Assembly: GCA_012845835.1 (NCBI GenBank)
Contig: JABAKD010000010.1
Span: 11,803,973 to 11,867,972 of the forward strand
Length of the DNA stretch: 64,000 bases
Direction: 5' to 3'
Origin: Undaria pinnatifida
Lineage: Eukaryota; Sar; Phaeophyceae; Laminariales; Alariaceae
Shown here: piece after piece, positions 4,413 to 62,510 of the stretch
Layout of the letters: every line of letters begins with the position of its first letter
Position numbering within the stretch: the stretch's first letter is position 1
Made by a program: the position numbers and the translations under genes
Notes under the pieces: model-generated
What the model saw: the letters and a program-made list of their open reading frames with translations, nothing else
Told to the model about the DNA's origin: nothing
Database searches by the model: none

Positions 4413-6050
4413 TCACAAGAATTCTATCACGTTCCGGAACAAGTCGTCCTTCCCCATCCCCACCAGTCCCGCGACTACACGCTCGATGCCACCAGACAAG
4501 ATCGCGCGCTCCGCGGCTCCCTGGTGAGCGGTTTCGCGGCCGTCGACGTTACGGGCTGCATCATCACCCCTCCCCCCCACTCTCGCCAATCTCGCCCTCT
4601 TCCGCGTCACCATGCCGCAGGCATCGCCAGACACTCCGCCTCTCTCCGGACGCGTCGGCTGCGGAAGCTTTGGTTTCGCCCTGTCGGGGTGGGCGCGGCA
4701 CATCACAAAGAAGCCCCGGCGGCGCCACACCCTCTGTCTGCGGGCCTTGGCGAGCAGATCCAGTACCAACGCGTTGTTGGATGCGTCCTTTAATACCTCC
4801 GCCGCGGTGAGACCGTTCTTGTCTACGGCTGTGTCGTCCGCACCCCCTTCCAGCAAAGCTTCCACCATCTCGGCGGAGCTGTTCTGTTTGGACACCCGGG
4901 CTGCCAGATGGAGCGGCAGCTGCTTGTTGTTGTCGGGTGCGTTGGCGCTAGCGCCATGACCCAAGAGGGCGCGCGCGATTCCGACGTTGTTTAACCCGGA
5001 AGCGCGGTGGAGAGGCGTTCGTCCTGTCATATCCGGGGCGTCCAAGTCTGCTCCCGCACCGACGAGCAGGTTGATTGTGCCGACGGCCTCGATCGTTACG
5101 GTGGCGTGGTGCAAAGCCGTGCGGCCCTCCGAGTCGGCGGAGGTGACGGTCGCTCCGCGCTGGATGAGCGTCTTGATAAGTTCTACGTGTTCGTTGAGAA
5201 CCGCCAGGTCCAGCGCCGAAAACTCGTCTCCGCCTTGGCGGAGGTCGACGTTCGCTCCAGCGGCCAGGAGCGCTTGCGCGGCGTAGGGGCTCCCGAGCGA
5301 TTCGGTTGCGATATGCAACGGAGAACTGCCGTACCCGTCCAGTCTGTCCATTTCAGCTCCAAGTTCGCACAGTGCCGTCACTATTTCTGGAAAATTCTCC
5401 TGTGCGGCAATGTGCAGGGGTGTCCTGCCGTTGTTGTCCTGCGCGTTCATGTTCGCCCTGGCCCCTACGAGCGCCTTTATCACACCAACCTGGCCGCCCA
5501 CGGCTGCGGTGTGCAGAGCGGTGTAACCGTTGTAGTTGACGGCATGTACGCTCGCCCCCCCCTGCAGGAGGGCCATCACAACACCCAGGTTCCCTTTGTA
5601 AGCAGCCGCATCTAACGCCGTGCTGCCGATCACGCTGTGTTGGAGGTTGGCGTTAGCGCCGGCAGCCAGGAGAGCGGCGACCGTCCGAGGGTGGTTGTTA
5701 AGCGCTGCTAGGTGCAGCGCAGTGTCTCCTTCCGTGTCTAACGCGTCCACATCTGCGCCGCCGCTCACAAGTACCGATACAGCGTGCTCGTGCCCGGCCT
5801 TAGCTACCAAATGGAGAAGGCGTCCACCGCCCCTGGAGCAGACAGCGTTCGCGGAAGCGCCATACTCCAGAAGCTTCCTCATGTGCTTCACATCGCCGGC
5901 AGTAGCAGCGTGCTCGAGAGGTAGCTCCAACCACGCTGGCAGGTTTCCCAGAGCTCCACCGTGGTGGACATCAAACACTTTTGCCTTGTCTTTCTTAGTC
6001 ATCGCCATCCTATTTGTGACCGTGCGGCTACTCGTGTTATTACGAGGCAT
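4413..6050 (-). CDS. Ankyrin-repeat protein with brown-algal type C-terminal block
   Basis: The 545-residue frame opens at a Met (MPRNNTSS); Mets at residues 15 and 17 are alternative starts. Residues ~45-435 form about eleven ankyrin repeats with the usual G-TALHLAA and LL--GA patterns, e.g. GDTALHLAALNNHP and GRTPLHIAAQENFP. Such stacks bind proteins; no enzymatic domain is seen. After the repeats comes a basic WRRRGFFVMCRAHPD segment, then CGMVTRKRARL (NLS-like), and the end GKDDLFRNVIEFL. The second gene at 39.5-41.1 kb keeps all three tail motifs, so the tail is a conserved part of this family. No signal peptide or membrane segment is seen, so a cytosolic or nuclear place is inferred. 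The coding part appears to be one exon with an intron starting 5 nt after the stop. The partner is unknown. The frame is intact throughout, consistent with a working gene. Confidence 0.9.
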   Translation of the reverse strand: MPRNNTSSRTVTNRMAMTKKDKAKVFDVHHGGALGNLPAWLELPLEHAATAGDVKHMRKLLEYGASANAVCSRGGGRLLHLVAKAGHEHAVSVLVSGGADVDALDTEGDTALHLAALNNHPRTVAALLAAGANANLQHSVIGSTALDAAAYKGNLGVVMALLQGGASVHAVNYNGYTALHTAAVGGQVGVIKALVGARANMNAQDNNGRTPLHIAAQENFPEIVTALCELGAEMDRLDGYGSSPLHIATESLGSPYAAQALLAAGANVDLRQGGDEFSALDLAVLNEHVELIKTLIQRGATVTSADSEGRTALHHATVTIEAVGTINLLVGAGADLDAPDMTGRTPLHRASGLNNVGIARALLGHGASANAPDNNKQLPLHLAARVSKQNSSAEMVEALLEGGADDTAVDKNGLTAAEVLKDASNNALVLDLLAKARRQRVWRRRGFFVMCRAHPDRAKPKLPQPTRPERGGVSGDACGMVTRKRARLARVGGRGDDAARNVDGRETAHQGAAERAILSGGIERVVAGLVGMGKDDLFRNVIEFL

Positions 6051-6126
6051 CGCCCTTGTTGCTTGGAGGGAGGTATATTAGACCGAAATCAGCTGCCCAG
6101 TTTACGCCCGCCTGGTGGCCCACGTC

Positions 6127-7678: not shown

Positions 7679-8430
7679 GGCCATTTCTTATACAGTCGGA
7701 TTTGTCAGTCGAAAACGGCCTTTTTCGACTGGAGCCCAAATCGAGCTTTCTTACACAGTCGAAAAAGGGCTTTTTCGACTACACTTTTTTCGACTGACAA
7801 TTCCGACTGGCGGATCCAGTCGAAAAACTCAGTCGAAAAAGTTTTACACGTGTTTTTTTAACCGATCGCATCGTTCATCCCACCACCAAACACACATCCA
7901 CACGTCCACACGGCCACACACCCATACCACGTACCACACTGCAGTATCATACAAGGCACTGACGCTGGCGTGGCTATCACTGCTGTTGCTTCTCGCAGCA
8001 AGTCAGCGTGGCGCATTCCTAGTTCCGCTCGCCAGCAGCGTGTGTCACACGACGGCAGCAGCGCGCGGTCTCGATCCCATGCTGCCAACAACGGCTGCGC
8101 CTGCTGTAGCTTTGGCGGCTCTCGGCTGAGTGCAACTCCACGAACGTAGCTTCGGCGGCTTTCGGCTAAGCCCAAAGCCACCAACTCGTTGGGACGAGGG
8201 TTCGTCGAGCCGTTGCTCGCGGAGAAAGCGCGAAGCACAAAGCTGCCATCTGATTTCGACTGCTGTACAGCAGTACTCCCTCACACCAACCGCCTCTAGG
8301 AAGAGCACAAAAACTATAAAATCGACTCGACTGACGATAAGAAGAAGGACCAGAAGATTCCAGTCGAAAAAAAATCCAGTCGAAAAGGGCCGTTTTCGAC
8401 TGGCGGAATCCGACTGTGTAAGAAATGGCC
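7679..8430. mobile_element. Non-autonomous PIF/Harbinger-type element, 752 bp
   Basis: The ends are inverted repeats of about 54 bp starting GGCCATTTCTTAYACAGTCG. The left arm is 7679-7732 and the right arm about 8377-8430. The element is flanked on both sides by TAA (7676-7678 and 8431-8433), the classic 3-bp TWA target duplication of PIF/Harbinger. AGTCGAAAA motifs are repeated in direct and inverted order near both ends, so the ends can fold back further. No transposase frame is seen inside, so it would need a helper element. The match of both TIR and TSD makes the class call fairly firm. Confidence 0.8.
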
Positions 8431-16500: not shown

Positions 16501-17076
16501 GTAATCCCATTCCAGGAGCATGCTTACGTGCCCCTGCTGCATATACTTATTAGGGCCATATTTGCCGATCTTCTCCATTCAACGCAATTGGACGTCACCA
16601 CATTATGGGCCTTGTTATGGAATCCAACGCATTTTCTTCATTTTTCATTTAGAAATGAAATTCCATTGCATGGGAAGGCGTTTGTTCGAAGGATGTACAG
16701 CAGATGAATACCTATTGTTGTGTATGTAGTGCGATAAAACAAGTACACAGCAGTGGCCTGCAAATAATCGCGGCAGATGACACCACTAAAATTGAATTTG
16801 ACTAATAGTCCAAGAACATCATGTGATACCCGAAGCAGTATATCGGAACACTTTACACTGCGCGTGCGACATGTATATAAACCTTCTGCTGTACAACAGC
16901 GGTAGCACGGTGATATCGCTACGAAAGCGGACGCTGGCCAGGTTTACCCCCCTGTTAATAGTAATGAATGGATACCGCATACGCACGTATCATACACACT
17001 GCTGTAGGAAGCTGGATTCAGCATGCACTCGCAGGCTTTGCTCAAAAGTGCACTACCTCAACGCCAGCAGTATCTA

Positions 17077-18094
17077 AGCAGGGTTCACGCACAGGTTTGA
17101 CGGATCTGCACACCGAAAACATACATGATGATTGATGTATGATACTCGTATCATACACACCTGCAACGAGGCGTGTTCACGAGCACCACACCGCCGTGGC
17201 AATAAGATGGATCTATGCTCGTACATACATACTTGTGTCGTACTTGTATTCGTGGATCCAAAAGATTACCGCCCGCCTTGGAAATAGGGTCTGCAGGTCT
17301 CGATGATGAAGCCCCCGCACTCGGGTTAGAAACTACCGCCCGGGAGGGTAAATCGACCTTGCCATTCCGAGATCTCGACCTCTCGACGAGCTCTAAGGCA
17401 ATGCTGGACGAAGGAGAGGCAGCGCTGAGGTCAAGCAATTGCTGTGCGGCCTCGCGCTGTCTCTCCACACTCCAACGCCCTGGACGCGCACTATTGCCCC
17501 TGAGCAGCCTCGTAGCACGAGCGGGGCTTTCGGCGGGGTTGCTCTCCGAAGCTAGTGATGCGAGGGGTGGTCCCCCTGAAGCAGCAGCGGCAGTCTGCTG
17601 TGGCCGCCGCGAAGAAGGCTCGCTGCCCGTCCGCGTGACCGATCCACCTCGAGACACAGGCGCCCTCACGCGGCTGTCGCCGCGATGCTGACAAGTCCTC
17701 TTGGAGGCACGGACAGCACGGGCAGCGGACCCACTCGCAGCTTTCGCCGGTGGTACGTTGCAACTGTTGCTTGAGGTCGTATACTCGAGAGGTCGAGATC
17801 TCGGAATGACAAGGTCGATTTACCCTCGCGGGCGGTAGTTTCTAACCCGAGTGCGGGGGCTTCATCATCGAGACCTGCAGACCCTATTTCCAAGGCGGGC
17901 GGTAATCTTTTGGATCCACGAATACACGTACGACACAAGTATGTATGTACGAGCATAGATCCATCGTATTGCCACGGCGGTGTAGTGCTCGTGGACACGC
18001 CTCGTTGCGGGTGTGTATGATACGAGTATTATACATCGATCATCATGTATGTTTTCGGTGTGTAGATCCGTCAAACCTGTGCGTGAACTCTGCT
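17077..18094. mobile_element. 1.02-kb element with ~310-bp terminal inverted repeats
   Basis: The left arm (17077-17386) and the inverted right arm (17785-18094) agree over about 310 bp with roughly ten differences by eye. The outer ends start AGCAGRGTTCACGCACAGG and are flanked by TA on both sides. The ~400-bp spacer holds an open, Ala/Ser/Arg-rich minus-strand frame running into the arm (near 17151-17669), perhaps a captured gene piece. Long arms suggest a Mutator-like or mariner-like non-autonomous element. A TA flank favours Tc1/mariner, but the class is not certain. A transcript would form a very long hairpin. Confidence 0.7.
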
Positions 18095-18099
18095 TAATA

Positions 18100-34972: not shown

Positions 34973-35930
34973 AAATGTTACGCAACAAATGCTACCCGAG
35001 TTGTTTCCTTCTAAACTCGTTTTTCCACCACATTTTCTACCTGGTCAGCTAAAAGCCAACGTGCTCCGTGCCGATTGTTAGGAATGCGAGGGTCTTCGGC
35101 CTAACGACTACGGCCATACCTGGTACCTGGTACGTGGTAACACGAGTTTATCGCCCCCCCTGCTCCGAGTTTATCAAAAACGGGTAAACAACGCGTTCAT
35201 CACCAAAATTGTCGTAAGAAGCCTCCAGCCCGTCCCCCCCCTTCCGAGGTCCTCCTTTACGGGGCAAAAAACGCGTTAATTTTTAACTAGCAGCCGCATC
35301 TTCAGAACCTCGTTTCGACGGCGAAATCCCTACCCGTCCCATGCCGCGTCCAGTGTTGGATGCGGCGTGTGGCAGTAGCAGTCGTCCTAGTGCTGGACAG
35401 GCAGAACAGGGCAGGGCAGGCATGTAGTCGTTGGTTGGGTTCGAGAAGGAACGGGCAGCAAGCACGGCGCGTTCGTCTTCGCGGTCTTCATAATGGGTCG
35501 GCGTGTAGTTTGTTCCGTCATTGTTCCGGAATGTTTGAAAGGGGATTTATCTCCGTCTCGCGGGGGTGTGGGGAATTAACCAACAAAAACGTACGGAGGG
35601 TTTTCGTATTTTGTGGCATTTTGATGAAGAACATGCGACAACAAACACTCCGAACGGTGGTGTCTATGTTTTCCTGGAACGGTTGGCTATGACCAAAGCA
35701 TAGACGTATACCCTCGCGTCCAAGACAACCCACGCCGGATCGAACATGTAATATCATACTACACTACAAAAACGCAGATGCAATTTTCACTTTGCCCCGT
35801 AAACACGAGATGAAGGCGCTCCGCGGCCTGGATAATGCTTTCTCTTAATGCTAGGTAGCGTCGCCTTCAAATGTTGTAAAACATGTCCGTTCAGTCGTAA
35901 TCTACCGGAGCGGAAACATCAACCTCACCT

Positions 35931-36246
35931 GCTTTGCAATCACTGGTCACGTCCCGGAACACGCCCCGCTCCTCCATCCCCAACACTATCTTCGCCACAC
36001 GCTTGATGCCATCAGCCACCTTCCACGCACCCCGCGGCTCCCCGGCTATCGATTATCTGGCTGCATCACCCCCACCCCATCCCCCAGCCTCGCCAACTTC
36101 GCGTACTCGCTGATCACCATGCCGCAGGCCAAGCCAAACGGTCCGTCTCGCTCCAAACGCGTTGGCTGCAATCTGTCGGGGTGAGCTCGGCACGTCACGC
36201 GGAAGATGCGATGGCGCAACGCGCTCTCCCGGGGGGGACATGGCAT
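35931..36246 (-). pseudogene. Relic C-terminus of a third ankyrin gene (unit 1)
   Basis: In one minus-strand frame near 36046-36200 the sequence reads VTCRAHPDRLQ and then CGMVISEYAKLARLG, matching the CRAHPD and CGMVTRKR segments of the 4.4-kb gene. After a frame change, near 35946-36040, it reads KIVLGMEERGVFRDV, matching the GKDDLFRNV end. The normal FL-stop is replaced by a longer read into AAGCAG and a GTGAGG donor. No ankyrin repeats precede it, so it is a decayed tail and not a gene. Confidence 0.65.
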
Positions 36247-37096
36247 GCAGATCTAGCACAGGCCGCGTTGCTGGGCGGGCCATCCATATGGTAACCTATG
36301 TTTTCTTGGTCCCAAGTCACGCACACTGCTCTGCCGCCATTCGCATCAACAACCTTCTCGTTGTTTGTGAAGGTGAAACCCGTACCCGACTACGCCGCGT
36401 CTTGCTCAGCGTTGGACGCGGCGTGTAACAGCAGTAATCGCCGTAGAGCCGGGCAGGCGGAACAAAGGCATGGGAGGGTTATTGGTAAATTTTCGAGGTG
36501 GAATTAACAGCAAACACGGCGCACTGTTTTTGTTTTGCATGTCATTTCATCATACGTTGGGCTTGTAGTTTGTTCCGCTGATGTTTTCGGTTGCTTTTTG
36601 GAGGATCATTCCTTCCGTCTTTCAGGTTGTGGCTTCTAAAAAGCTGGACAAAACTCAACGATTTTCATTTGATATTTCGTTATCTTTTTAATGGCATTTT
36701 CACGAAAAATACACGACCGGCTTTCCTGCAACTAGTCCAAACTGGGGTGTCGTAGTTTCGCTGGAACTGTCGGCTGTGCATGCCCTCGTGTACAAGACGA
36801 ACCCCATTCGATCGTAAACAATGTGTCATTGTACTAAACGGCGCTAACTTGATTTTTCAAGCTGATTCATTACATGAGATGAAGACGCCTTGCGACCTGT
36901 GGCGTGCTTTCTCTTGACCCTCTCGTCGGTAGATGCCCCTTTGAAGTTTTTTCTTGAATGCAAGAGGTACGCACATAGCATAAATGCATCCTGCGTCGGC
37001 AACGGATATTACACCGCTTGCTTTCCGCAACCCTTGCGTGTGCAGTCGTACGCACCATAAGCATATGCCAGCGAAGGCAAATGGATCTCACCTGTT

Positions 37097-37473
37097 TCAC
37101 AAAAATCCGATCAAGTTCCGGAACACGTCGTCCTCCTGCATCTCAGCAACTGCGTCCAGCACAGCCTCGATTCCCTGGCCACCCCCATCCACCATCTCCA
37201 ACTTCGGTCGCTTCCTGGTGACCACGCCGCAGGCTCCACCAGACGCTCCATTCTCCTCCGCAGACTTTCGCTCCTGAAGCTCTTTCCGAACCTTGTTGAG
37301 GCGAGCTCGCCACATCACCGGGAGGCACCGTCGGCGCCACGCCCTCTCCCTCCTCTCCGTGAGGGCCGTGACCAGCAGTGCTAGCACGACATCGTTTGTA
37401 GGCGGGCCATTTGGGTTTACACCCGGCTGCACGTCATACCCTAACACGTCCGCCGCGGTTTGGCCATCGTCGT
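37097..37473 (-). pseudogene. Truncated copy of the second ankyrin gene tail
   Basis: This is the duplicate of 39469-39845 and encodes the last ~125 residues including AWRRRCLPVMWRAR, GVVTRKRPKL and QEDDVFRNLIGFL, then stop and the AACAG-GTGAGAT donor. It lacks all ankyrin repeats because the duplication junction cuts it. The frame is still open, in keeping with a young duplication. Without a promoter or start of its own it is probably not expressed as protein, though a Met happens to lie just upstream across the junction. Confidence 0.8.
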
Positions 37474-38304
37474 CGACTACGGGCATACCTGGTACCTGGT
37501 ACGTGATAACACGAGTTTATCGCCCCCTCTGCTCCGATTTTCTCAAAAACGGGTAAACAACGCGTTCGTCACCAAAATTGTCGTAAGAGGCCTCCAGCCC
37601 GTCCCCCCCCTTCCGAGGTGTTTCATTACGGGGCAAAAAACGCGTTAATTTTTAACTAGCAGCCGCATCTTCAGAACCTCGTTTCGACGACGAAATCCCT
37701 ACCCGTCCCAAGCCGCGTCCAGTTTTGGATGCGGCGTGTGGCAGTAGCAGTCGTCCTAGTGCTGGACAGGCAGAACAGGGCAGGGCAGGCATGTAGTCGT
37801 TGGTTGGGTTCGAGAAGGAACGGGCAGCAAGCACGGCGCGTTCGTCTTCGCGGTCTTCATAATGGGTCGGCGCGTAATTTGTTCCGTCATCGTTCGGGAT
37901 TGTTTGAAAGGAGATTTATCTCCGTCTCGCGGGGGTGTGGGGAATTAACCAACAAAAACGTACGGAGGGTTTTCGTATTTACTTTGTTGGCATGTTGATG
38001 AAGAACATGCGACAACAAACACTCCGAACGGTGGTGTCTATGTTTTCCTGGAACGGTTGGCTATGACCAAAGCATAGACGTATACCCTCGCGTCCAAGAC
38101 AACCCACGCCGGATCGAACATGTAATATCATACTACACTACAAAAACGCAGATGCAATTTTCACTTTGCCCCGTAAACACGAGATGAAGGCGCTCCGCGG
38201 CCTGGATAATGCTTTCTCTTAATGCTAGGTAGCGTCGCCTTCAAATGTTGTAAAACATGTCCGCTCAGTGGTAATCTACCGGAGCGGAAACATCAACCTC
38301 ACCT

Positions 38305-38620
38305 GCTTTGCAATCACTGGTCACGTCCCGGAACACGCCCCGCTCCTCCATCCCCAACACTATCTTCGCCACACGCTTGATGCCATCGGCCACCTTCCAC
38401 GCACCCCGCGGCTCCGCGGCTATCGATTATCTGGCTGCATCAACCCCACCCCATCCCCCAGCCTCGCCAACTTCGCGTACTCGCTGATCACCATGCCGCA
38501 GGCCAAGCCAAACGGTCCGTCTCGCTCCAAACGCGTTGGCTGCAATCTGTCGGGGTGAGCTCGGCACGTCACGCGGAAGATGCGATGGCGCAACGCGCTC
38601 TCCCGGGGGGGACATGGCAT
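38305..38620 (-). pseudogene. Relic C-terminus of a third ankyrin gene (unit 2)
   Basis: Same sequence as 35931-36246 with a few substitutions, carried by the tandem duplication. It keeps the CRAHPD-like, CGMV-like and VFRDV motifs in two frames and the AAGCAG-GTGAGG donor. Since both copies share the same damage, decay came before the duplication. Confidence 0.65.
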
Positions 38621-39457
38621 GCAGATCTAGCACAGGCCGCGTTGCTGGGCGGGCCATCCATATGGTAACCTATGTTTTCTTGGTCCCATGTCACGCACAC
38701 TGCTCTGCCGCCATTCGCATCAACAACCTTCTCGTTGTTTGTGAAGGTGAAACCCGTACCCGACTACGCCGCGTCTTGCTCAGCGTTGGACGCGGCGTGT
38801 AACAGCAGTAATCGCCGTAGAGCCGGGCAGGCGGAACAAAGGCATGGGAGGGTTATTGGTAAATTTTCGAGGAGGAATTAACAGCAAACACGGCGCACTG
38901 TTTTTGTTTTGCATGTCATTTCATCATACGTTGGGCTTGTAGTTTGTTCCGCTGATGTTTTCGGTTGCTTTTGGAGGATCATTCCTTCCGTCTTTCAGGT
39001 TGTGGCTTCTAAAAAGCTGGACAAAACTCAACGATTTTCATTTGATATTCCGTTATCTTTTTAATGGCATTTTCACGAAAAATACACGACCGGCTTTCCT
39101 GCAACTAGTCCAAACTGGGGTGTCGTAGTTTCGCTGGAACTGTCGGCTGTGCATGCCCTCGTGTACAAGACGAACCCCATTCGATCGTAAACAATGTGTC
39201 ATTGTACTAAACGGCGCTAACTTGACTTTTCAAGCTGATTCATTACATGAGATGAAGACGCCTTGCGACCTGTGGCGTGCTTTCTCTTGACCCTCTCGTC
39301 GGTAGATGCCCCTTCGAAGTTTTTCTTGAATGCAAGAGGTACGCACATAGCATAAATGCATCCTGCGTCGGCAACGGATATTACACCGCTTGCTTTCCGC
39401 AACCCTTGCGTGTGCAGTCGTACGCACCATAAGCATATGCCAGCGAAGGCAAATGGA

Positions 39458-39463
39458 TCTCAC
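39458..39463 (-). other. Predicted 5' splice site after the stop of the second ankyrin gene
   Basis: The minus strand reads TTG TGA AACAG then GTGAGAT. The spacing of 5 nt between stop and GT is the same as in the 4.4-kb gene. A 3' UTR intron is inferred. Confidence 0.55.
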
Positions 39464-39468
39464 CTGTT

Positions 39469-41052
39469 TCACAAAAATCCGATCAAGTTCCGGAACACGT
39501 CGTCCTCCTGCATCTCAGCAACTGCGTCCAGCACAGCCTCGATTCCCTGGCCACCCCCATCCACCATCTCCAACTTCGGTCGCTTCCTGGTGACCACGCC
39601 GCAGGCTCCACCAGACGCTCCATTCTCCTCCGCAGACTTTCGCTCCTGAAGCTCTTTCCGAACCTTGTTGAGGCGAGCTCGCCACATCACCGGGAGGCAC
39701 CGTCGGCGCCACGCCCTCTCCCTCCTCTCCGTGAGGGCCGTGACCAGCAGTGCTAGCACGACATCGTTTGTAGGCGGGCCATTTGGGTTTACACCCGGCT
39801 CCACGTCATACCCTAACACGTCCGCCGCGGTTTGGCCATCGTCGTTGGCGGCCGCCACGTTCGCGTCCCAACGCAGAAGAAGCTTAACCACGGCGGCGGA
39901 GCTGTCGTCCGTGGACACTCTGGCTGCCACGTGCAGCGGCGTATTCCCGTCGTAGTCGGGCGCGTTGACCTTTGCACCGTGCAGTAAGAGGCCGTGCACG
40001 CCTCCGACCGCCGACCACCAGGCAGCGTAGTGGAGGGGCGTTCGGCCGTCTTGATCGCGGGCGTCCACGGCACCTCCCGCCTGAACGATCGCGTTGATCA
40101 CGGCTAACCTTTCAGGCCCGTTGACCTTGTGCAAAGCCGTTCGGTGCTTCCCGTCGACGGCGTCAGTGTTTGCTCCGTGATCGAGCAGCATCATCACCAT
40201 TCTCACGCTCCCGTAGGCGGCAGCCATGTCCAGCGCCGAGGCATTTGTATCGAGTTCACGGAGCTCGACATCCGCTCCAGCGTTAAGGAGCTCTTCCACC
40301 GCGTCAAAGGACATCTCCATAATTGCAACATGAAGCGGCGCAAAGCCGGACGTGTCCAGCATGTCGACGTTTGTTCTTGATACACACAGAGCCTTCACGC
40401 ACTCAGCATTGTTCCGGTGCGAGGAAAAGTGCAGAGGCCCCCACCCGTTTATGTCCCGCTTGTTGGTGTCCGCCTTGGCCTGTACGAGCTCGCGAATTGC
40501 GTCAACATTATCGACCATGGCTGCTTGGTGTAGAGCGGTAACCCCCCCCGCGTTGGCAGCATTGACGTCCGCCTTGTGCGCGAGGAGAACCTTAATGGTA
40601 GCCACGCTTCCATTGTAGGCGGCCATCTCTAAGGCCGTACTACTGTATGAATCGAAGCGGGAGATGGTGCTTGCCCCCCCATCCAGGAGCGCGGTGGCCG
40701 TGTGAGGGTTGCCTATGAGAGCTGCCACCTGAAGTGGAGTGAACGAGCGCCCATCTAGGTGGTCTACAGGTGCGTGGTGTTTCAGAAGGACGCGTACGGC
40801 GTCGTGTTTGCCAGCGGCAACAGCCAAATGAAGAATGCACCCCCCGGTGCAGCCGACGGTACCCGGGGACGCGCAAAGCGTCAGCAATACATCCAACAGA
40901 TCCGTATTGCCGGTGAAAGCAGCGTACTTGAGCGAGGGGGCCAATGCCTGCGCCTCGTTCCCTTTGTGGTGGCGTAGAGCGTTGAGCACCCTATCCATGT
41001 CCTCTTGGGTTGTTATATTGCTGATGAACGGCATGTCGTTATCACCAGGCAT
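39469..41052 (-). CDS. Second ankyrin-repeat protein, 527 residues
   Basis: The chosen start is the Met of MPGDNDMPFISN. The open frame continues upstream to 41271, but only through an Ile/Met run made by a GATGAT microsatellite. A good acceptor (pyrimidine stretch ending GGATCCTCAG at about 41110) lies between, so the upstream part is probably intron. Residues ~35-400 hold about eleven ankyrin repeats (for example GVTALHQAAMVDNV, GRTPLHYAAWWSAV, GNTPLHVAARVSTD). The tail keeps AWRRRCLPVMWRAR, CGVVTRKRPKL and the end QEDDVFRNLIGFL, like the 4.4-kb gene. Repeats diverge clearly from that gene, so they are old paralogs. A splice donor follows 5 nt after the stop. Function is inferred only as protein-protein binding; the TRKR patch could direct it to the nucleus. 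Confidence 0.88.
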   Translation of the reverse strand: MPGDNDMPFISNITTQEDMDRVLNALRHHKGNEAQALAPSLKYAAFTGNTDLLDVLLTLCASPGTVGCTGGCILHLAVAAGKHDAVRVLLKHHAPVDHLDGRSFTPLQVAALIGNPHTATALLDGGASTISRFDSYSSTALEMAAYNGSVATIKVLLAHKADVNAANAGGVTALHQAAMVDNVDAIRELVQAKADTNKRDINGWGPLHFSSHRNNAECVKALCVSRTNVDMLDTSGFAPLHVAIMEMSFDAVEELLNAGADVELRELDTNASALDMAAAYGSVRMVMMLLDHGANTDAVDGKHRTALHKVNGPERLAVINAIVQAGGAVDARDQDGRTPLHYAAWWSAVGGVHGLLLHGAKVNAPDYDGNTPLHVAARVSTDDSSAAVVKLLLRWDANVAAANDDGQTAADVLGYDVEPGVNPNGPPTNDVVLALLVTALTERRERAWRRRCLPVMWRARLNKVRKELQERKSAEENGASGGACGVVTRKRPKLEMVDGGGQGIEAVLDAVAEMQEDDVFRNLIGFL

Positions 41053-41149
41053 CGTGATTGAAGTGCCAATCGACAGGTTTTTTCCGGGGTCCGTTGTACA
41101 ATGTCCTACCTGAGGATCCCGGAGGCAGGGAATCATAAAAAGGTTCAGT

Positions 41150-41283
41150 TTCGGGATAGTGATGATGATAGTGATGGTGGTGATGATGACGATCAAGATG
41201 ATGATCATGATGATGATCATGATGATCGTGATGATGATCATGATGATCATGATGATGATAATGATAATCATGATGATGTTCTA
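41150..41283. repeat. (GAT)n / GATCATGAT microsatellite
   Basis: About 130 bp of GATGATGATCATGATGAT and variants lie just upstream of the second ankyrin gene, probably in its first intron or 5' region. It gives the spurious poly-Ile/Met extension of that frame. Confidence 0.85.
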
Positions 41284-41375: not shown

Positions 41376-43575
41376 GTTCATGAAAGTTTTCATGGAAGCT
41401 TCCACCGTTTCCATGAAAGCTTCCACCGCTTCCGTGGAAGCTTCCACCGCTTCCGTGGAAGCTTCCACCACTTCCACCACCTTCTTAGAAGCTTCTACAA
41501 CTTCCATGGAAGTTTCTACTACTTCCACGGAACCTTGCGTGGGAGTGGTGAAAGCTTCCATGGAAGTACATCGGAGTGGTGAACGTTTTCATGGAAGTTT
41601 CCGCGGCAACTTCCGTGGACTTTTCCACTATTCCATGAAAGCTTTTCCACTCTGTTCCATGGAAGAGGAACGATTCTATGCACTTCTATGGACGCTTCCA
41701 TGCAAGTAGTGGAGACGTCCATCTAATCGTTCTCCCTGGGAGAGCGAATTCTGTCGCGGAAGCTTCCGTGGAAGTAGTGGTGGCTTCCGTGGAAACAATG
41801 GGAGATTCCACTGCTTCCAATTTATTCCACCACGTCCACCATATCCATGGAATTGTTGGAGTTTGTGGAAACTTCCGTGAAAGTAATGGAAGCTTCCTCG
41901 GAACCTTCCATGGGAGTAGTGAAAACTACCGCGTACTTCCGTGACCACATTGGAGGCTTGCACGGAAGCAGTGATCGCTTCCGTAGAAGTAATAGAAGCT
42001 TCCACGGGAGTAGTTGAAGGTTCCGTGGAAGCTCTCATCGCTTCAATGGAAGCTTTCACGGAAGCAATGGAAGCTTACACGGAGGTAGTGGAAGCTTCTA
42101 TGGAAATGGTGGAACCCTAAGCCTCTATGGAAGTGTTGAAGCTTCCAGCTTCCGCAGAAGCAGTACGATATTTCAATTCCAGTAATCCTCGCGACGATTC
42201 CACTTATAGTGTTTCAGGGAAGGATTACAATTGCCCAGGAGTGTTTTATTCGCTTTTAAGTGCCAGGTGGAAATCGAGATCCGCAGTTCGCAAATCGTGG
42301 TCTACAGTTCGGAACAATTGAAACCAAATCGAAAGCTGCGCAGCCGTATTTTTGGCCCGTTTGGGGTCCGGTTTGGGGTCAGGGTTAGGGCTAGGGTGCG
42401 GGATTGAGTTGGGTATACGCCTGTGCCTTGGCCCCACCGTCAGAAGTACTTCCTAGCTCGAACAATCGTGAGCAATCAACAACCGGGCCCCTGGAAGACA
42501 TATAATAAAACCGTTTTTTATATACAGCTTTTCAAATTTTGCATGTGCCTCCACAAAAACATGGAAGCCACTTCCGTGAAAGATTAAAGTACTTGAAGCT
42601 TCCGTGGAAGTAGTGGACGCTTCCATGGAAGTAGAGAGGAATATTTCATGGAAGTAGTGGGAGCTTCCATCACTTACTGGAAGCGTTTATGGAAGTAGTC
42701 GAAGCTTCCATCACGTCCATGGACGTAGTGGAAGCTTCCATGGAAGTAGTGGAATATTCCATGGAAGTAGTACAAGCTTCCATGGCAGTACATGGAATCA
42801 TTGGAGATATCCGTGGAAGATTATATGCAAGTACTGAACGAGTGGAAGTCACTTCCGTGGGAGCTTCAGCTACTGCCGTGGGAGCTTCGACTACTTCCGT
42901 TTAAGCTTCCGCAACATTCCATGGAGTTATATCAATGCAAATTTTCGAGGAAGATTGCGTTACTCCCATGGAAGATCCCACGGAAACACAAAAGGTTCTA
43001 AGGAATCTTCCACGGAAAATTTCACGAAAGTTTCCAAGGGATCTTCCACGGAAGCTTTCGCGGAAGTTTCCACGCACGGTTCCATGGAAATTTCCAGTAC
43101 TTCCGCGGAAGCTTCGATGGAGGATTCCACTACATCCACGGAATCAGCTTAGATGAAAGCTTCCGCAACTCGTATAGAAGATTCCACCACTTTCATGAAG
43201 CCTTCTAAGGACGTTTCCTTGGGAATTTCCGTGGAAGGTTTTACAAACGTTTTCGTGGAAGTTTCCACGGTGGAAGCTTCCATGTACTTCATGAGCTTCC
43301 ATTTAACTATCACCAACCCTAACCCTAGCCCTTGCCAAAGATCTCTGCTTGGTTGGCGTGCTTTGGAAAGACTCTAGGTCGCCTTGCTCGGAAAAAATCC
43401 CTGTCACTGTGCTTCGAACGACTCCACGGAATGTCGCAGTGCTCGGGTATACTCTAGGTCGCTGTGCTCGGAAATTTCCATGGAAGATTTCGTTCACGAT
43501 TCCACGACTCCCATGTACTGCCATGGAAGTAGTGGAAGCTTCCATGGGAGTAGTGGAAGTGGAGGAAGGGTGAAT
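41376..43575. repeat. Palindromic satellite, GGAAGCTTCC / TTCCATGGAAG units
   Basis: About 2.2 kb of degenerate units such as TTCCATGGAAGTAGTGGAAG, built from GGAAGCTTCC and TTCCATGGAA palindromes 12-30 bp apart. The stretch 42140-42590 is mostly other sequence and includes a telomere-like GGGTTAGGGCTAGGG; a mirrored CCCTAACCCTAGCCC lies at 43317-43331. Thr/Ser/Glu-Ala open frames are by-products. The YR element lies at its right edge, and satellite-like CGGAAGCTTCCG reappears at 46712, after that element. Confidence 0.85.
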
Positions 43576-48119: not shown

Positions 48120-48795
48120 CCAGTACTGTAATCCAGTGTTAATTGTTCTGGTGTAACCGGCCGACTCTTGATTCTTGATTCTTGATTCATTGCCCAATCA
48201 CAGCATGATCTTTGGCATTTTGAAGAGGAACCTATGCGTTGTTGTCAGGTGTTCGGTTTTCGCCGTATGATACATGATACTCGCATGATACCTCATCGTG
48301 TACATACTCATCAGCTGCTGCTGCTATGAATATGCTGCCGTCGCTCTGCTGTACTGGCGTACTGGCTGTAGGACGATCGCTGTGGTCACCGAAAGGACAC
48401 ATTGAGAGTAGACATACATACACACGACGTCGTACCTGGTACCCGGTAAAATAACCACCATTCGTTGTGTCTGGTGTCAGATACTTTTTCCTCGAATAAG
48501 GATTTACCCAATCGATACCTGGTACCTGGTATCATGCGTATGCCATATGATACGCACTCCAGGTATGTATCATACGTATAATAGGATGATATTGGTATGA
48601 CACGATATAGGCATGCAGCGCCAACGATATGCGTCGCCGTGCTGGTACCTGGGTAACATATGAGACGTACCACCAAGTACCCAGGGTATGTATGTATTAT
48701 AGGACATTCCTATCATCGTGCAGCGCCATCGATTTTTATGTGTTGTCGTGCTTTTCTCTAGGTGTTCATATTGACTAACGTGAGACGAATATTAA
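48120..48795. other. Intergenic, rich in GGTACCTGGTA-type palindromes
   Basis: GGTACCTGGTA and relatives occur near 48436, 48520 and 48645, and GTATCATACGTATAATA-type motifs lie between. TTGATTCTTGATTCTTGATT (48171-48190) is a short tandem repeat. No gene recognised. Confidence 0.45.
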
Positions 48796-48797
48796 GG

Positions 48798-49516
48798 CGT
48801 TGCCTTGCGGGATCCTTGACAATAACAGGGTCCACAGAAGGGGCACAGATGTGTCTATCGCGAGACCACAGCTGTCAGCCGGATAACCCAGATGATAGAT
48901 TTATATTACTGTTAAGGGGCAATACTTGCTTGGTTTGGTCAGGATACAAGAGTGAGAGAGAGGGGAGCGGGGGGGGAGGAGTAGCTCGACCATAACCAAG
49001 CTACGAGGACGGCTCTCGTACTGGCGAGGAATAAAAAGCGTCATCCAAGACATCGCTCCTAAGCGCAAGCTGCTATCCGCCTACGTAGGACACTTCTACA
49101 AGGCCACGCGCGTGACGTGCTGCATACTTGAAGCAGAAGTAAAGATCAACCCCTAACACGGCCAATCACATCGAGTCCTGTGCACTTCTAAGAACCAAAC
49201 TGCCCATAATGCTGGCGCGCAGTTGTACTATCTGGGCCAATCAGCACGGGGCGTGGCTCGAGACAGGATGCTACCATTATTATACTCGTACTGAGCAGAT
49301 TCCCTGGCTCATTATACTGTCGTGTCATAGTTGTACGTGCTTATTCGTAGTTCGCACGACAGGTTTCCTAATCGCACAACAGATTCCGAATGCCACGGTC
49401 GATTCCGAATCACACGATAGTTGAATATCAGAAATCATACCTTAATTAATCAACAGGGATGGGTGGTTGGTCTATTGCTCATAAAAATGGCGATTACGAA
49501 GTGTAACACCATAACA
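48798..49516 (-). repeat. Left long terminal repeat (3' in element orientation)
   Basis: It matches 54085-54801 almost base for base, including ACCCAGATGATAGATTTATA, GGCTCTCGT, TACGTAGGACACTTCTACAA and the end GTGTAACACCATAACA. Small differences include an AATAAC insertion near 48820. Confidence 0.8.
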
Positions 49517-49789
49517 TTAGCCCACCCTGAATAGTCGCAGTGCAGATCACACGACGATATAGTGATGGCTAACCAAGACATCAGGAAATCGGGAAGTGGA
49601 TCGAAGATACTGTTACTCAAAACGAGGACAGCAAATGAGGCTATACACCAACCCACACCTCGTGATGATGGTTGATGATTGATTATTGAGGCTAAGACGC
49701 CTCTGGTAGGGGTTAATCCGTAGGCCCACTGTCAAGCAGAGGGCTTAGCAGAAAGTACTGATGCATGACAACGCAGAATACAAGGGAAG

Positions 49790-50400
49790 GGGCTCCGAAA
49801 AGGTAATAGTGAACTGAGGAAGAGAAGGCGTGCACTGCAAGATACCAGCCAGCGGCTGAATCTCTGTGCTTGGGACGCATGGGCTTGGGTAATAGAGCAC
49901 CAGAAAAGGTATCATCCGAACTGAAAACAGACTCGTGCACTGCAGGATACCAGCCAGCGACTGAATCTCTGTGCTTGAGACGCAAGGGGCACCAGAAAAG
50001 GTGACACCCGAACTGAGAACAGACACGCGACCTGCAGGATACCAGCCAGCGACTGAATCTCTGTGCTTGGGACGCATGGGCGTGGGTAAAGGGGCACCAG
50101 AAAAGGGAACACTCAAACTGAAAGCAGACACGTGCAAAAAATAATCAAGGATAGTGAAACGCCATACCGAATAGGGAAAACGACAAGGTCACAGCCGCCA
50201 CAAAGGCTCCGTTACTGAACCAATGAAGTTATAATACTTGAATCTCTATGCTTGGGGTGCATGGGCGTGGGTGAAGGGGCACCAGAAAAGGGAACACTCA
50301 AACTGAAAACAGACACGTGCAGAAAATAATCAAGGATTGTGAAAGGCCATACGGAATAGGGGAAACGACAAGGTCACAGCCACCCCGAAGGCTCCGTAAC
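49790..50400. repeat. ~100-bp tandem array inside the 6-kb element
   Basis: About five units share ACTGAATCTCTGTGCTTG, GGGACGCATGGGCGTGGGT, GGGCACCAGAAAAGG and AACTGAAARCAGACACGTGC, starting near 49855, 49960, 50052 and 50235. Unit length varies from ~95 to ~190 bp. Confidence 0.75.
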
Positions 50401-51849
50401 TGAAAATAGTACACCCTAAAGATGCCACAGCTCATGAGGAAGACGAAAACACAAACAAAAACATAAGACACTGAAGCTATGGTTGACCCCAGTTTCCTGA
50501 CTTACTAAGGGGAGGTAAGGAGGGCTCCGCGGGGCCCATCGGCATTGCGTAGGACACCTCGAGCCAGTCCCCCGGTCTGATGACGCTGAAGGCACCAGGA
50601 CCCGTGGACGACGCTCCGTGAAGTGGTGTAATGTGATGACAGGAGGTCGATCTTGATCGGTCCCGGGTCATCGAGGGAGCAAACGATGTAGCAGTTGGCG
50701 GGAGAATTGTCGATCGAGGCGCGGTGGGTTACCTTGCCCAATCACCAGAGACCGCCGCGGGCTTTATACCAGAGGTGTGCCCCCGCGGGGAGGGTAGTGG
50801 AACTGAAGCGTTGAAGCCAGAGGGTGCGCGGGACAAGTCTGTATCCGGGAGCGAGAAAATATCCGCCCGGGTCCACGCTAGTTCGCGGTGAGCGGCCCCG
50901 ATGCGCATCTGTCGGTATAAGCGGTTGGACTGGCGGTGTTGTGAAGAGGTGCCCGACCTATAACGGAGGATGTGAAGCCAGTGGTGTTGTAGGTCTTGTT
51001 CGTGTTCTCATGAAGGACTGAGAAGAACGGTGTTTTCGTCGGTGGTGTGTAGCTGGCCTTTTGTGGCGAGGGTTAGGACCTCGGCAAGAGGTGGGCGATG
51101 TGTCGAGGGGGTGTAGTTCAAGAGGTCGTGCGGCGGTGGCGAAAGTGAACCCAGGGAAAAGAACCCGAGGGTGGCGGAGCAGAGGGGCTCGGCGCGTTGC
51201 TCGTGCACCCAGTCGGTGCAGGTGTAGTACTCGACGCAGGAACGGAGATGGAGGTCATCAACGGGCTCGACAATGGGCTACGGTAGTCGAGGTGTTGCTT
51301 GCACAGTAGGGGGGGGCGGGGGAGGGGGTCTTGAGTCGGTGGTCTGCGATGATGAATGGAGGTGTCCGGTGGGGGGGTACTTATTGAGTTCGCGGTTGAA
51401 GACGACGAGGTGCTGGGTGCAGCGCGGCGTTGTGTAGTAACAGGTCGTTGGGCAGCCGGCTTGGACTTAAGAGTAGGTAGGCGGTGCTGGGGAGATGATC
51501 TTGAAGCGGCGGTACCCGGGGGCCGACGGTCAAAAATTCGTAGTTCGCAGGAGTACGGGAAATTCCAGCTGCAGCTGCGGAGCGGTTCCGGGTCCGAGAA
51601 AGTATCAGGCCTGACGAGGCACGAGGAGAGGTCGAAACCGAGACGTCCGATGTGGACGATGGGGAGACGACGGGTGGCCTGCAAGCCAAACCGGGAAGTG
51701 CGCCAGTACCACGGCGGCTTACTCGGAGCTGGAAGACGATTCGGCGATGTGGTCGAAAGTAGAGATGTGGCCTACAGAAGCGACGCAACGCGAGTTGACG
51801 GCAACGTATTGGACAAAACATTGGGCCGGCGGGAACGCGGTGTAGCGAT

Positions 51850-52260
51850 GCCGCGGTGGGGTCTTGGTCTTGGACGATTCGTTGGCCGACGGGAGCGCCG
51901 TGAGGCGGTTTCCACGGCGGGATCTTGGTCTTGGACAAAGCGGTGGCCGATGGGAACGGCGTGAGGCGATGCCGCGGCGGAATCCTGGCAAAGATGTGGC
52001 CGACGGGAACGGCGTGAGGCGGTGCCGCGGCGGGGTCTTGATCTTGGACAAAACGGTGGCAGGCAGGAACGCGGTGAGGCGGTGCCGCGGCGGCGACTTG
52101 GTCTTGGACAAAGCGGTGGCCGGCAAGAACGCCGTGAGGCGATGACGCGGCGGGGTCTTGGTCTTGGACAAAGCGGTGGCAGGCAGGAACGCGGTGAGGC
52201 GGTCCCGCGGCGGGGTGTTGATCGTAACGTGGACCAACAAAAACGCGGTGAGGCGAGTCG
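51850..52260. repeat. 60-bp coding-type minisatellite
   Basis: Six to seven units of about 58-62 bp share GCGGTGAGGCGGTGCCGCGG and GGGTCTTGRTCTTGGACAAA. On the minus strand each encodes a ~20-residue Pro/Arg unit (KTPPRHRLTAFLPATALSK). It lies within the 6-kb element. Confidence 0.8.
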
Positions 52261-53639
52261 GTGGTAAGGCCTTGAGTAAAGTGGGGGCTAAGGGGAAAGC
52301 TGTGGGGCGACCCCGGCGGTGGGGGCTTGGATTAAGCGAGGGGCGAGGGAAAGGCTGTGAAGGGATCCGGAAACGGAGTTTGGGGCAGCAATGGCGGCCA
52401 CGAATGGCCGAGTAACCTGGGCTGAATCCGCGGTGCCCATACGCTGTCCGTGGTGGCGGTAGTCGCCGAAATCGTTGTTGGTCTATGAAAACGGGGGGAT
52501 GGGCTCGGGGCAGCTTGAAGCAGGTGGTATGAGCCCACCTTAGCCAATGCCCGGGGTGAACGGCTCGAATGCAATGAAATCGCAGTCTTGGATGAGGTGG
52601 GTCGTGATTCTGTGGTAATGTCCTGTAGGGTCGATGTCGAATTTGTTTGAAGGGGGAAGAGTTTCCAAGAAGGTCGACTGGTTCGAGGTCAGTGGATCTC
52701 GAGAGCGGGATTGTTTGGTACCCTTTGGCGACGAAGATTTCCGCTTCAGAGGAAACGCCGTCGCGGGGAAGCATGTTGATCAGGCAGTGGCCGGTGAGGG
52801 CTGGGACACCCGAGGAGCGGACCAAGTTGACGGGGACAAGATACGGCGTGGACGAAAGTGATATTACGTACACGCCGGCGAACTCGAGGTGGAAGGTGTC
52901 GATGGTCGGTCAGTTGTCGCTGGTGAAGGTGGAGAGGCCTTCGGTGCGAGGAACCGAGGGGGAAAGTTCGCCGAAGATCGGTTGGGAGGGCTGGCGGGGC
53001 AGGATGGTGTATGTGCGCTGTGCAAAACTCATCCAGTTGTCTCATCCCAGTAGGACAGGTTGTTGCATAGTGCCCGCTGGAACAATGCGCACCCAAACCG
53101 CGAGCTGAGCGGAAGGGGTGTCGCCATGCAGAAGCTGGATGCTGAGCCTGACGGAGGTCAAGGTGAGGAGGGGGGGAAATTTGCCGAAACCTTCCAAGAA
53201 CGAGGGGGCGCGTGTCGTTCACGGACGTCCGATCCGGCGTTGTTGTACTTCATGCGGGCCCAAGCTTCAGCGCAGATAAAAGTCTGTGGGGAGGCGGTGT
53301 GCAGGAGGGATACTAGGCCGTTGGGGCCGATGGCGGAGGGCCCGCTATGTGCTTTGATCCTGGTGATGAAGGAGGCGTCATCGATGGTGGCAATGCCGTT
53401 CGAGAGGCCAGGTCCATGTTCGGCGATAGGGGGCGGTGGGGTGTCAGAGGGATCAAGTCCGGGTGTAATGGTCGAGACCAAAGTACATGCCGGAGTTGTT
53501 TCTGGAAGGAAGGGGGGCAGGAGACGGTCCAGTACGGAGGTTCCTGTAGGGGGTGCCATGGTCGCGCTAATCTCGTGGGTACCATTGTCCGAGGACGAGA
53601 CGCGAGTGGGGCGGGATGGAGGGGAGGGGTGGTCAAACT

Positions 53640-54085
53640 GGCTGCAGATCTTCATGAGGATGTCGCCGAAAACGTTGAGTCCCCGCCACTGCTGAGATCG
53701 GAGGGCTTGCCAGTCGGCAGTCCTGAAGCCGATACCCCAGACGAGATCGTGCGGACTGACTTCGGCGAGGAACTTGTCACCGGTGTCCAGTAGCTGCCGG
53801 CGGAAGGGAGGGGTCGAAAACTTGGCGAGTTTGTCCTTGTAAACGATGTCATAGCGATGACGTTCCCAGAGCCCTTGGTTGAAGTTGGATACGCGGAGCG
53901 TCCGAAACGTTTCTGCTCCGCAGGGTCCAAGGAGGCTATAATATCCCGGCGGGTGGCTGTATCGTCAAAAACTTGGCCTTCTCCGACATCATGTACTGTT
54001 CTGCGCAGTTGTAGTACTTCTTGTCGTCGGTGAAGGCCGAGGTGTACCACTGTGAAACCCTGCTGACGTCGCAAAAAATGAAGGT
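53640..54085 (-). pseudogene. NADAR-like domain inside the LTR-type element (fossil)
   Basis: Minus-strand motifs, in order, match the NADAR family: VSQWYTSAFTDDKKYYNCAE with EQYMMSEKAKF (about 53965-54060), SLDPAEQKRFGR (about 53905-53945), and near 53645-53800 the WGIGF and WRGLN motifs. NADAR proteins (YbiA-like) are N-glycosidases acting on riboflavin-pathway intermediates, and related folds act on ADP-ribosylated DNA or NAD metabolites. The domain begins right at the inner edge of the right LTR. Treated as a fossil together with its element; it is not intact. Confidence 0.6.
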
Positions 54086-54801
54086 GTTGCCTTGCGGGAT
54101 CCTTGACAGTAGGGTCAACAGAAGGGGCACAGATGTGTCTATCGCGAGACCATAGCTGGCAGCCGGATAACCCAGATGATAGATTTATATTACTGTTAAG
54201 GAGTAATGCTTGCTTGGTTTGGTCAGGATACAAGAGTGAGGGAGAGGGGAGCGGGGGGGGAGGAGTAGCTCGACCATAACCAAGCTACGAGGACGGCTCT
54301 CGTTCTGGCGAGGAATAAAAAGCGTCATCCAAGACATCGCTCCCAAGCGCAAGCTGCTATCCGCCTACGTAGGACACTTCTACAAGGCCACGCGCGTGAC
54401 GTGCTGCATACTTGAAGCAGAAGTAAAGACCAACCCCTAACACAGCCAATCACATCGAGTCCTAGTGCACTTCTAAGAACCAAACTGCCCATAATGCTGG
54501 CGCGCAGTTGTACTATCTGGGCCAATCAGCACGGGGCGTGGCTCGAGACAGGATGCTACCATTATTATACTCGTACTGAGCAGATTCCCTGGCTCATTAC
54601 ACTGTCATGTCATAGTTGTACGTGCTTATTCGTAGTTCGCACGACAGGTTTCCTAATCGCACAACAGATTCCGAATGCCACGGTCGATTCCAAATCACAC
54701 GATAGTTGAATATCAGAAATCATACCTTAATTAATCAACGGGGATGGGTGGTTGGTCTATTGCTCATAAAAATGGCGCTTACGAAGTGTAACACCATAAC
54801 A
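54085..54801 (-). repeat. Right long terminal repeat (5' in element orientation)
   Basis: Partner of 48798-49516. It starts TGTTGCCTTGCGG and ends ACACCATAACA on the plus strand. The NADAR-like reading continues from the interior into its edge, which is unusual for an LTR. Confidence 0.8.
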
Positions 54802-54849: not shown

Positions 54850-55015
54850 CCTGTTATGGTGTTTCCTGATCAAACCAAGCAAGCTTTGCCCGATAATAAT
54901 CAGAGACCTCCTCTACTACTTGGGTTTTATACGGCTGTCAGCTGTGGTCTAGCAATGGACACACCTGTCCCTTCTGAGGATCATATCGTCAAGGAATCCC
55001 CCACGGCGCACCTTA
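54850..55015 (+). repeat. Diverged inverted fragment related to the 718-bp LTR
   Basis: On the plus strand TTATGGTGTTTCCTGATCAA, ACCAAGCAAGC, GCTGTCAGCTGTGGTCTAGC, ATGGACACACCTGTCCCTTC and GTCAAGGAATCCC match, in the same order, the minus-strand reading of the LTR but with far more changes. It is therefore an older related copy, in the same transcriptional direction reversed against the neighbour. Confidence 0.55.
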
Positions 55016-55019
55016 ATAC

Positions 55020-55660
55020 CAACAACACCACAAATATGTACATGGCGGCACGAAGGGAATAGAAGGTACAGTACAGGGCACCGAATAATAATCAGGTTAA
55101 CAAGAAAGGCACCACCAGGGGAGCTACCCGCACATCTCAATAAATATGCTTGTCAACTTTTTGCTTGCTCTTCCTATTTATACTATAATAGTTGTGCCTT
55201 CTCTACCACTAAAATATGAAAAATTGGTCTCACTGCTGTATGGGAAAAGGGTTCACGCTGTTAGATCATGTGGATATAGAGACTGACAGCTCAGAGGTTT
55301 AGCTCAAAGACAACCTAGGTAAGTCTACTGTAGGGGATTATGACATTGAAGCCGAGGGGGCGGAGCGATGGAGTCATTACGATTTACGATTTCCCAATTT
55401 TGACCACTGAATACGTTATTTCGGATCGTGCTCGTGTGCTGATGGTGTCACTGCCTCTGTTAGTTTGGTTTAGAAGCGAGTAAAATCGCTTTGGTATGTA
55501 TGTACACTCGCCGCCACTAACGAAGAGCTAGAGAGTGGTTGATTGTTTTCTATGTTGTTGTGATCCAGGTAGGGATACGTATCAAGGCGTGCAAATGCAA
55601 GTATTGGCCTACGAATAAGAAACAGCATCATAGTGATACACACGTACGCCAGTGTCACGT
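55020..55660. other. Intergenic stretch, nothing recognised
   Basis: No gene, tRNA or clear repeat was recognised. Confidence 0.4.
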
Positions 55661-61735: not shown

Positions 61736-62510
61736 GTAGAGCCGTCTCTTCGGCCTTTGGCCCTGGCTTTAGCACGGCCGCTGACACTCCAGCCAGCCTC
61801 TGCTGTAGGCATGAACGAATGCGGTTGATTCGCAGCGAACTATCCCGCTGTGCTCGCTTCTATGTGGCCATTGTCCATGCCATTTCATGTCACCTCCCTT
61901 CTGTTTTGAGCTCGTCGTCGTACGGTTGAGGTACGAGGGAACCCGTACGTACTCGGTGAGAACAGCAGTATGTACGACGAGCATGAACGCCAATTGACGA
62001 CATTGGCAAGCAAAAAACAGCAGGTGCAGCAGCAGTAGCCGAAGGGCGAAACGTTTAGCACATAATGCAGCAACTAGTAGCAACCAGAACTACAGCAGAT
62101 AGCTCAAAGTGCAGTACCACGCAGGTAGAAGAGCCGTCTCTTCGGCCTTTGGCCCTGGCTTTAGCACGGCCGCTGACACTCCAGCCAGCCTCTGCTGTAG
62201 GCACGAACGAGTGCGGTTGATTCGCAGCTAACTATCCCGCTGTGCTCGCTTCTATGTGGCCATTGTCCATGCCATTTCATGTCACCTCCCTTCTGTTTTG
62301 AGCTCGTCGTCGTACGGTTGAGGTACGAGGAAACCCGCACGTACTCGGTGAGAACAGCAGTATGTACGACGAGCATGAACGCCAACTGACGACATTGGCA
62401 AACACACAACAGCAGGTGCAGCAGCAGTAGCCGAAGGGCGAAACGTCTAGCACATAATGCAGCAACTAGAAGCAACCAGAACTACAGCAATTAGCTCAAA
62501 GTGCAGTGCG
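61736..62510. repeat. 392-bp tandem duplication
   Basis: Unit 1 (about 61736-62127) and unit 2 (about 62128-62510) differ at around a dozen sites. Each begins GTAGAGCCGTCTCTTCGGCC or close to it and ends near CAAAGTGCAGT. Each holds an open minus-strand frame of 104 codons (61769-62083 and 62161-62475). Confidence 0.9.
62161..62475 (-). other. 104-codon open frame kept in both tandem units
   Basis: It starts MLLVAALCARRFALRLLLLH, a signal-peptide-like hydrophobic start, and ends AYSRGWLECQRPC. The sister frame at 61769-62083 is the same length with about ten amino-acid changes. Equal length after divergence may be chance because few substitutions have occurred. No family is recognised and no promoter or splice evidence is seen, so it is not called a gene. 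Confidence 0.25.

Follow-up and report, generated by a model that had tools for sequence, protein, structure and literature searches.

A retroelement lineage that carries a NADAR domain has already been described: a Ty3/Gypsy lineage with NADAR is known from Ectocarpus (PMC12477816; Genome Biology, September 2025). In the available text of that report, the blastp matches outside Ectocarpus are almost exclusively bacterial, oyster Tx1 LINE ORF1 proteins appear to carry NADAR too, and the authors offer the processing of RNA intermediates as a possible role for the domain. Gypsy-12_Ec32, an example of this lineage, is named there among the families with a putative C-terminal chromodomain, and Copia families with a single gag-like ORF are described from Ectocarpus as well (PMC12477816). 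Among the literature matches listed, it is the sole report of NADAR in transposons, to judge from titles, the openings of abstracts and passages of the text. Two further NADAR proteins lend themselves to comparison. The NADAR of Phytophthora nicotianae (PDB 8bau) is an intact enzyme and an orphan member of the YbiA subfamily, for which the passages of PMC11543638 at hand mention no link to a retroelement. Esi0017_0056 is a stress-induced Ectocarpus protein with DUF1768/NADAR and thus belongs to the same family in a brown alga; it is encoded by a host gene with two predicted introns, and the string 'transpos' is absent from the main text of the paper (PMC7922944).

The 64-kb stretch of DNA analysed here (the window) contains a locus that is, in our view, probably an LTR retroelement in decay, non-autonomous and of the Ty3/Gypsy type with NADAR known from Ectocarpus, to which it is likened by published description. 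The first-pass annotation had proposed that an element family took in a NADAR domain, an idea that is right in kind in view of the available Ectocarpus work (PMC12477816) and hence not new. The finding itself is real but its central idea has been published before, and the window's sole addition to the published picture is an example that lacks a recognisable RT-integrase core. The features of the locus are as follows.

48798..49516, minus strand: LTR, left copy, 719 bp, with about 97% identity to its right counterpart (3' LTR in a minus-strand reading of the element)
49787..50404, no strand assigned: tandem repeats with units of 92 and 185 bp, close to the left repeat
50508..50957, minus strand: possible remnant of the C-terminal part of Pol, barrel-like (chromodomain or Tudor-like), a by-eye conjecture
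51809..52220, minus strand: tandem repeat with a 60-bp unit (6.9 copies), rich in Pro and Arg when translated on the minus strand
52649..52909, minus strand: open piece after the possible protease, coding-like (codon-position G+C 0.57/0.45/0.72)
53045..53379, minus strand: possible remnant of an aspartic protease, split between two frames (53215-53379 and 53045-53212), a by-eye conjecture
53629..53901, minus strand: NADAR C-terminal piece, third frame (ORF 53158-53964, PF08719 E 3e-20; PDB 8bau E 3.2e-08)
53898..53975, minus strand: NADAR middle piece, second frame, from the joint profile alignment and aligned with 9 relatives
53966..54088, minus strand: NADAR N-terminal piece, first frame (ORF 53936-54184, PF08719 E 5.9e-05, alone below the curated cut-off)
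54085..54801, minus strand: LTR, right copy, 717 bp, with TG...CA ends (5' LTR in a minus-strand reading of the element)
54860..55007, plus strand: fragment of a related repeat end immediately beyond the element, diverged and inverted (73% over 150 columns, E 1e-15)

The NADAR domain is encoded by the minus strand next to the inner end of the right repeat, where motifs of the family had been noticed in the first-pass annotation. It is nearly full-length, twice frameshifted and spread over three successive frames; in its present state the copy has no single frame for the entire domain. A Pfam profile check of the translated window, proposed together with that annotation, gives a significant match without any correction of the frame (PF08719 against ORF 53158-53964: 73.5 bits, E 3e-20), and the three frame pieces joined with X at the frame jumps reach 121.8 bits (E 4.3e-35, profile positions 12-159 of 163), both above the curated cut-off of 35.1 bits. 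By this profile the domain is a YbiA-subfamily NADAR, above the curated cut-off across nearly the whole domain. Another profile, built free of the window from nine (L006-L014) of 25 fetched relatives, recovers two pieces of the domain (1.2e-22 and 2e-11) and a marginal overlapping frame (0.012), and finds nothing further at E <=1 in the stop-to-stop ORFs (25 aa or longer) of the window. Given the PF08719 matches and the recovery of two pieces by the window-free profile, the identification as NADAR is right. Codon-position G+C also shifts phase along the minus strand, as it does in a frameshifted coding region. The N-terminal NADAR frame continues out of the repeat, with the PF08719 match starting at 54061, some 24 bases inward of the repeat edge, and there is no room for a Gag between the right LTR and NADAR.

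As in the Ectocarpus NADAR-Gypsy lineage, the NADAR of the window is N-terminal on the coding strand, running from 54088 downward on the minus strand. Compared with Gypsy-12_Ec32, however, no RT or integrase was found in the window element, which has no recognisable chromodomain and a doubtful protease, and its NADAR is frameshifted. It resembles Copia-N1_Ec32 and Copia-11_Ec32 in being an LTR element without a recognised enzyme core, but these are of Copia type with an ORF homologous to gag, whereas the recognised domain of the window is NADAR (PMC12477816, in its available text). The window NADAR is similar in sequence to the Phytophthora protein 8bau (E 5.9e-13); that enzyme is intact and the window copy is frameshifted. 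Four ligand-site residues were compared, and all four match: the window pieces keep, in the 8bau alignments, the E and K seven residues apart that correspond to E43 and K50 and the E and D five residues apart that correspond to E125 and D130, the comparison being limited to these positions and chain residue n being the paper's n-2 by our own count. In the passages of PMC11543638 at hand, the four residues serve in ligand binding or catalysis, E125 is the residue tied to the YbiA subfamily, and NADAR enzymes are able to remove ADP-ribose from nucleic acid. The most likely role of the domain, to judge from the enzyme family, the kept residues and the suggestion of the authors of the Ectocarpus report, would be to hydrolyse a modification of ADP-ribose type carried by nucleic acid, perhaps by the RNA intermediate. 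The first-pass annotation had suggested that the domain might counter host defence, where the Ectocarpus authors point to RNA processing instead. Since more than one kind of retroelement has taken up NADAR, namely Gypsy in Ectocarpus and, it appears, Tx1 LINEs in the oyster (PMC12477816, available text), ADP-ribosylation of nucleic acid may matter for retrotransposition or its control in eukaryotes.

The two direct repeats are identical in 706 of 730 aligned columns, a little flank included, and enclose an interior of 4.57 kb. Over 714 ungapped sites they differ by 13 transitions and 4 transversions (K2P 0.024, the first two repeat bases with their one difference being left out) and by gaps of 3 and 1. 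Direct repeats of about 718 bp with TG...CA ends had been reported at first pass; the repeats stand and so do the ends of the right copy, but on the plus strand the left copy starts with CG, a change in one end dinucleotide out of four. Bases 54083-54084, on the inner side of the right repeat, also match the left flank. Since a diverged, inverted repeat-end fragment lies at 54860-55007, the repeat is probably not confined to this pair. The outer side of the left repeat (48790-48797) and the end of the inverted fragment (54860-55020) both read CCTTAATA in repeat orientation, which reflects a preference for the target or else a repeat end that is longer.

The remainder of the interior is less readily named. 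Retropepsin-like motifs had been placed downstream of NADAR at first pass, but neither Pfam nor PDB returns a match there, and what is left is motif-like text with a hint from codon composition. By eye, the minus-strand stretch 53379-53045 can be read as a remnant with what we take to be an altered catalytic motif of a protease. The composition of its two frames (codon-position G+C 0.55/0.55/0.73 in 53215-53379 and 0.66/0.48/0.68 in 53045-53212) fits a coding origin, and the stretch could be a protease in so far as the by-eye reading identifies it. Pfam shows no protease family in six frames of 49400-54200 or in four protease and post-protease queries, one of which consisted of two frame pieces with X between them. 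A PDB sequence search returned nothing for ORF 51722-52909 and a chance myoglobin row for the protease-like stretch (E 1.7), and the single-sequence fold of this stretch is too poor for use (mean pLDDT 33.3). A zinc-knuckle-like text at 53052-53084 was rejected, its frame having a dissimilar composition (G+C 0.36/0.82/0.45) and overlapping the protease-like frame. The open piece at 52649-52909 belongs to no known family in Pfam or PDB sequence searches. The Pro/Arg repeat noted at first pass is indeed there, as the 60-bp tandem unit of 51809-52220. A chromatin-reader remnant at 50508-50957 found no support, the stretch giving no Pfam match, a chance PDB row (E 0.65) and a fold too poor for use (mean pLDDT 35.6). 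Altogether, Pfam recognises no family besides NADAR in six frames of 49400-54200, where one chance-level CAP160 row appears at 0.12.

In agreement with the first-pass annotation, which had seen no reverse transcriptase or integrase, no RT, RNase H or integrase was found in six frames of 49400-54200 or in 5 kb on either side. The 5-kb flanks hold no RT or integrase at E <=0.1, their only rows being Ribonuclease_P at 0.014 and, at 0.013, a Dickkopf subdomain, each short of its own cut-off, and Gag gave no profile match in six frames of 49400-54200. Read on the minus strand, the element would lead from the 5' LTR (right copy) directly into NADAR, then into the possible protease remnant and a further interior of tandem repeats and unrecognised coding-like stretches, and would end with the 3' LTR (left copy). 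Because the RT-RNase H-integrase core is missing, any movement without it would have needed the enzymes of a full element. The earlier description of the element as a non-autonomous fossil is supported by a NADAR spread over three frames and by RT and integrase not being found.

How far the decay had gone when the element inserted bears on whether it belonged to a family of its own. With rates calibrated on the LTR pair, that is on 17 substitutions and 2 gaps, the NADAR stretch has 2 frame changes where 0.64 are expected (P 0.135), and 52543-54088 has 4 frame changes and 2 stops where 2.15 and 0.83 are expected (P of the sum 0.082), the counts outside NADAR depending on our own frame reading and the stops on an assumed fraction of 4.5%. 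Neither stretch shows a clear excess of lesions over this expectation. Since the lesions are not significantly above it, the element may still have had an intact frame when it inserted. It is conceivable, then, that the locus represents a separate, non-autonomous LTR family, in which NADAR, with the protease-like stretch, would take the place of Gag at the 5' side next to the LTR and be the main enzyme, and which would be copied in trans by RT and integrase from elsewhere, much like the Ectocarpus Copia families with a single gag-like ORF (PMC12477816, available text). If so, NADAR would act on the element's own RNA or particle. That no Gag and no RT core were recognised would suit such a family, as would a frame possibly intact at insertion. 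However, the element is present in one copy only, no second copy of its interior being found within the 64-kb window, and the core could equally have been deleted after insertion. Moreover, the recognised domain contains two of the four frame changes and neither of the stops, and the calibration draws on few differences and on the assumed stop fraction. We consider a separate family unlikely, and a decayed copy of the NADAR-carrying Ty3/Gypsy type the better account of the locus.

The hallmarks of insertion leave room for a further alternative, close to the second one raised at first pass, in which a NADAR gene of the host decayed where it stood and came to be framed by two copies of an unrelated LTR, for example as two solo LTRs or as a recombination product. 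No target-site duplication of 4-6 bp was found, only a 4-base match at unequal offsets, and no TGG primer site lies within 33 bases of the inner end of the right repeat (minus-strand reading) or within 50 of that of the left (plus-strand reading). In the 50 bases before either repeat there is no uninterrupted purine run of at least 7. Because interrupted purine-rich stretches occur in both readings, a polypurine tract is silent on orientation, and since the insertion hallmarks are thus either not found or readable both ways, the minus-strand orientation is taken solely from NADAR. These results would suit a framed host gene, and a free-standing NADAR gene does exist in Ectocarpus with Esi0017_0056 (PMC7922944, main text). 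They also count against the element reading, as do the lack of room for a Gag, a protease that no search supports, the interior found once in the window, and the viral-contig scans with the NADAR C-terminal half and linker, the protease-like stretch and 50508-50957, which yielded no relative. However, the NADAR frame emerges directly from the edge of the repeat and is read in the direction away from it, which fits a gene of the element, and a published Gypsy lineage bears such a domain (PMC12477816, available text), which makes a framed host gene less likely. The repeats themselves also speak against it. They differ by only K2P 0.024, as is often the case for two LTRs of one insertion. We therefore hold this scenario to be quite improbable, and again prefer a retroelement that carried NADAR as its own gene. 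That the locus is a product of chance or artefact, with neither NADAR nor repeats, is next to impossible, being refuted by the Pfam match of E 3e-20 on an uncorrected piece and by repeats of about 718 bp at 97% identity.

For the window NADAR, a collection of bacterial and archaeal genomes yielded 24 related loci, all bacterial by title, with a best identity of 43%; the top eight of the 24 are 36-43% identical in their best segment, over 147-158 of 164 query positions. Since this collection is limited to bacteria and archaea, the bacterial affinity lends weak support to the corresponding statement in the available text of PMC12477816. In IMG/VR, a scan followed by tblastn produced one relative among seven candidates for the whole NADAR, and none among 36 candidates for the NADAR C-terminal half with linker, 12 for the protease-like stretch and 15 for 50508-50957. 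The relative is a viral contig (L006) whose NADAR at 8001-8414 is 41% identical to that of the window over query positions 11-158, and it resembles the element in the NADAR stretch only. A 19-base LTR pattern picked out five IMG/VR contigs (L001-L005), which were discarded, none having a blastn match to the window or a tblastx match to the element. The whole element gave no match to phage records in distant mode.

Further features lie elsewhere in the window. An inverted repeat of 312 nt (17075-17386 / 17785-18096) has arms that are 96% complementary and 398 nt apart, and is possibly the end pair of a DNA transposon or a foldback element. A tandem duplication of about 2.1 kb (35105-37236 / 37474-39608) is 95-99% identical in the four 300-base blocks listed, at a spacing of 2369-2374. 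Dense tandem repeats, mostly of 21 bp and made of GGAAGCTTCC-like words, fill 41391-43094, and a 392-bp unit occurs twice in tandem at 61738-62507 with 96% matches. A 126-nt repeat is present in five copies (at 26425, 56734, 57064, 58284 and 61230), four of which are 71-87% identical to the reference copy. Two ORFs on the minus strand are rich in ankyrin repeats, one of 554 aa at 4416-6077 (Ank, E 4.8e-59) and the other of 603 aa at 39472-41280 (Ank_2, E 1.1e-49).
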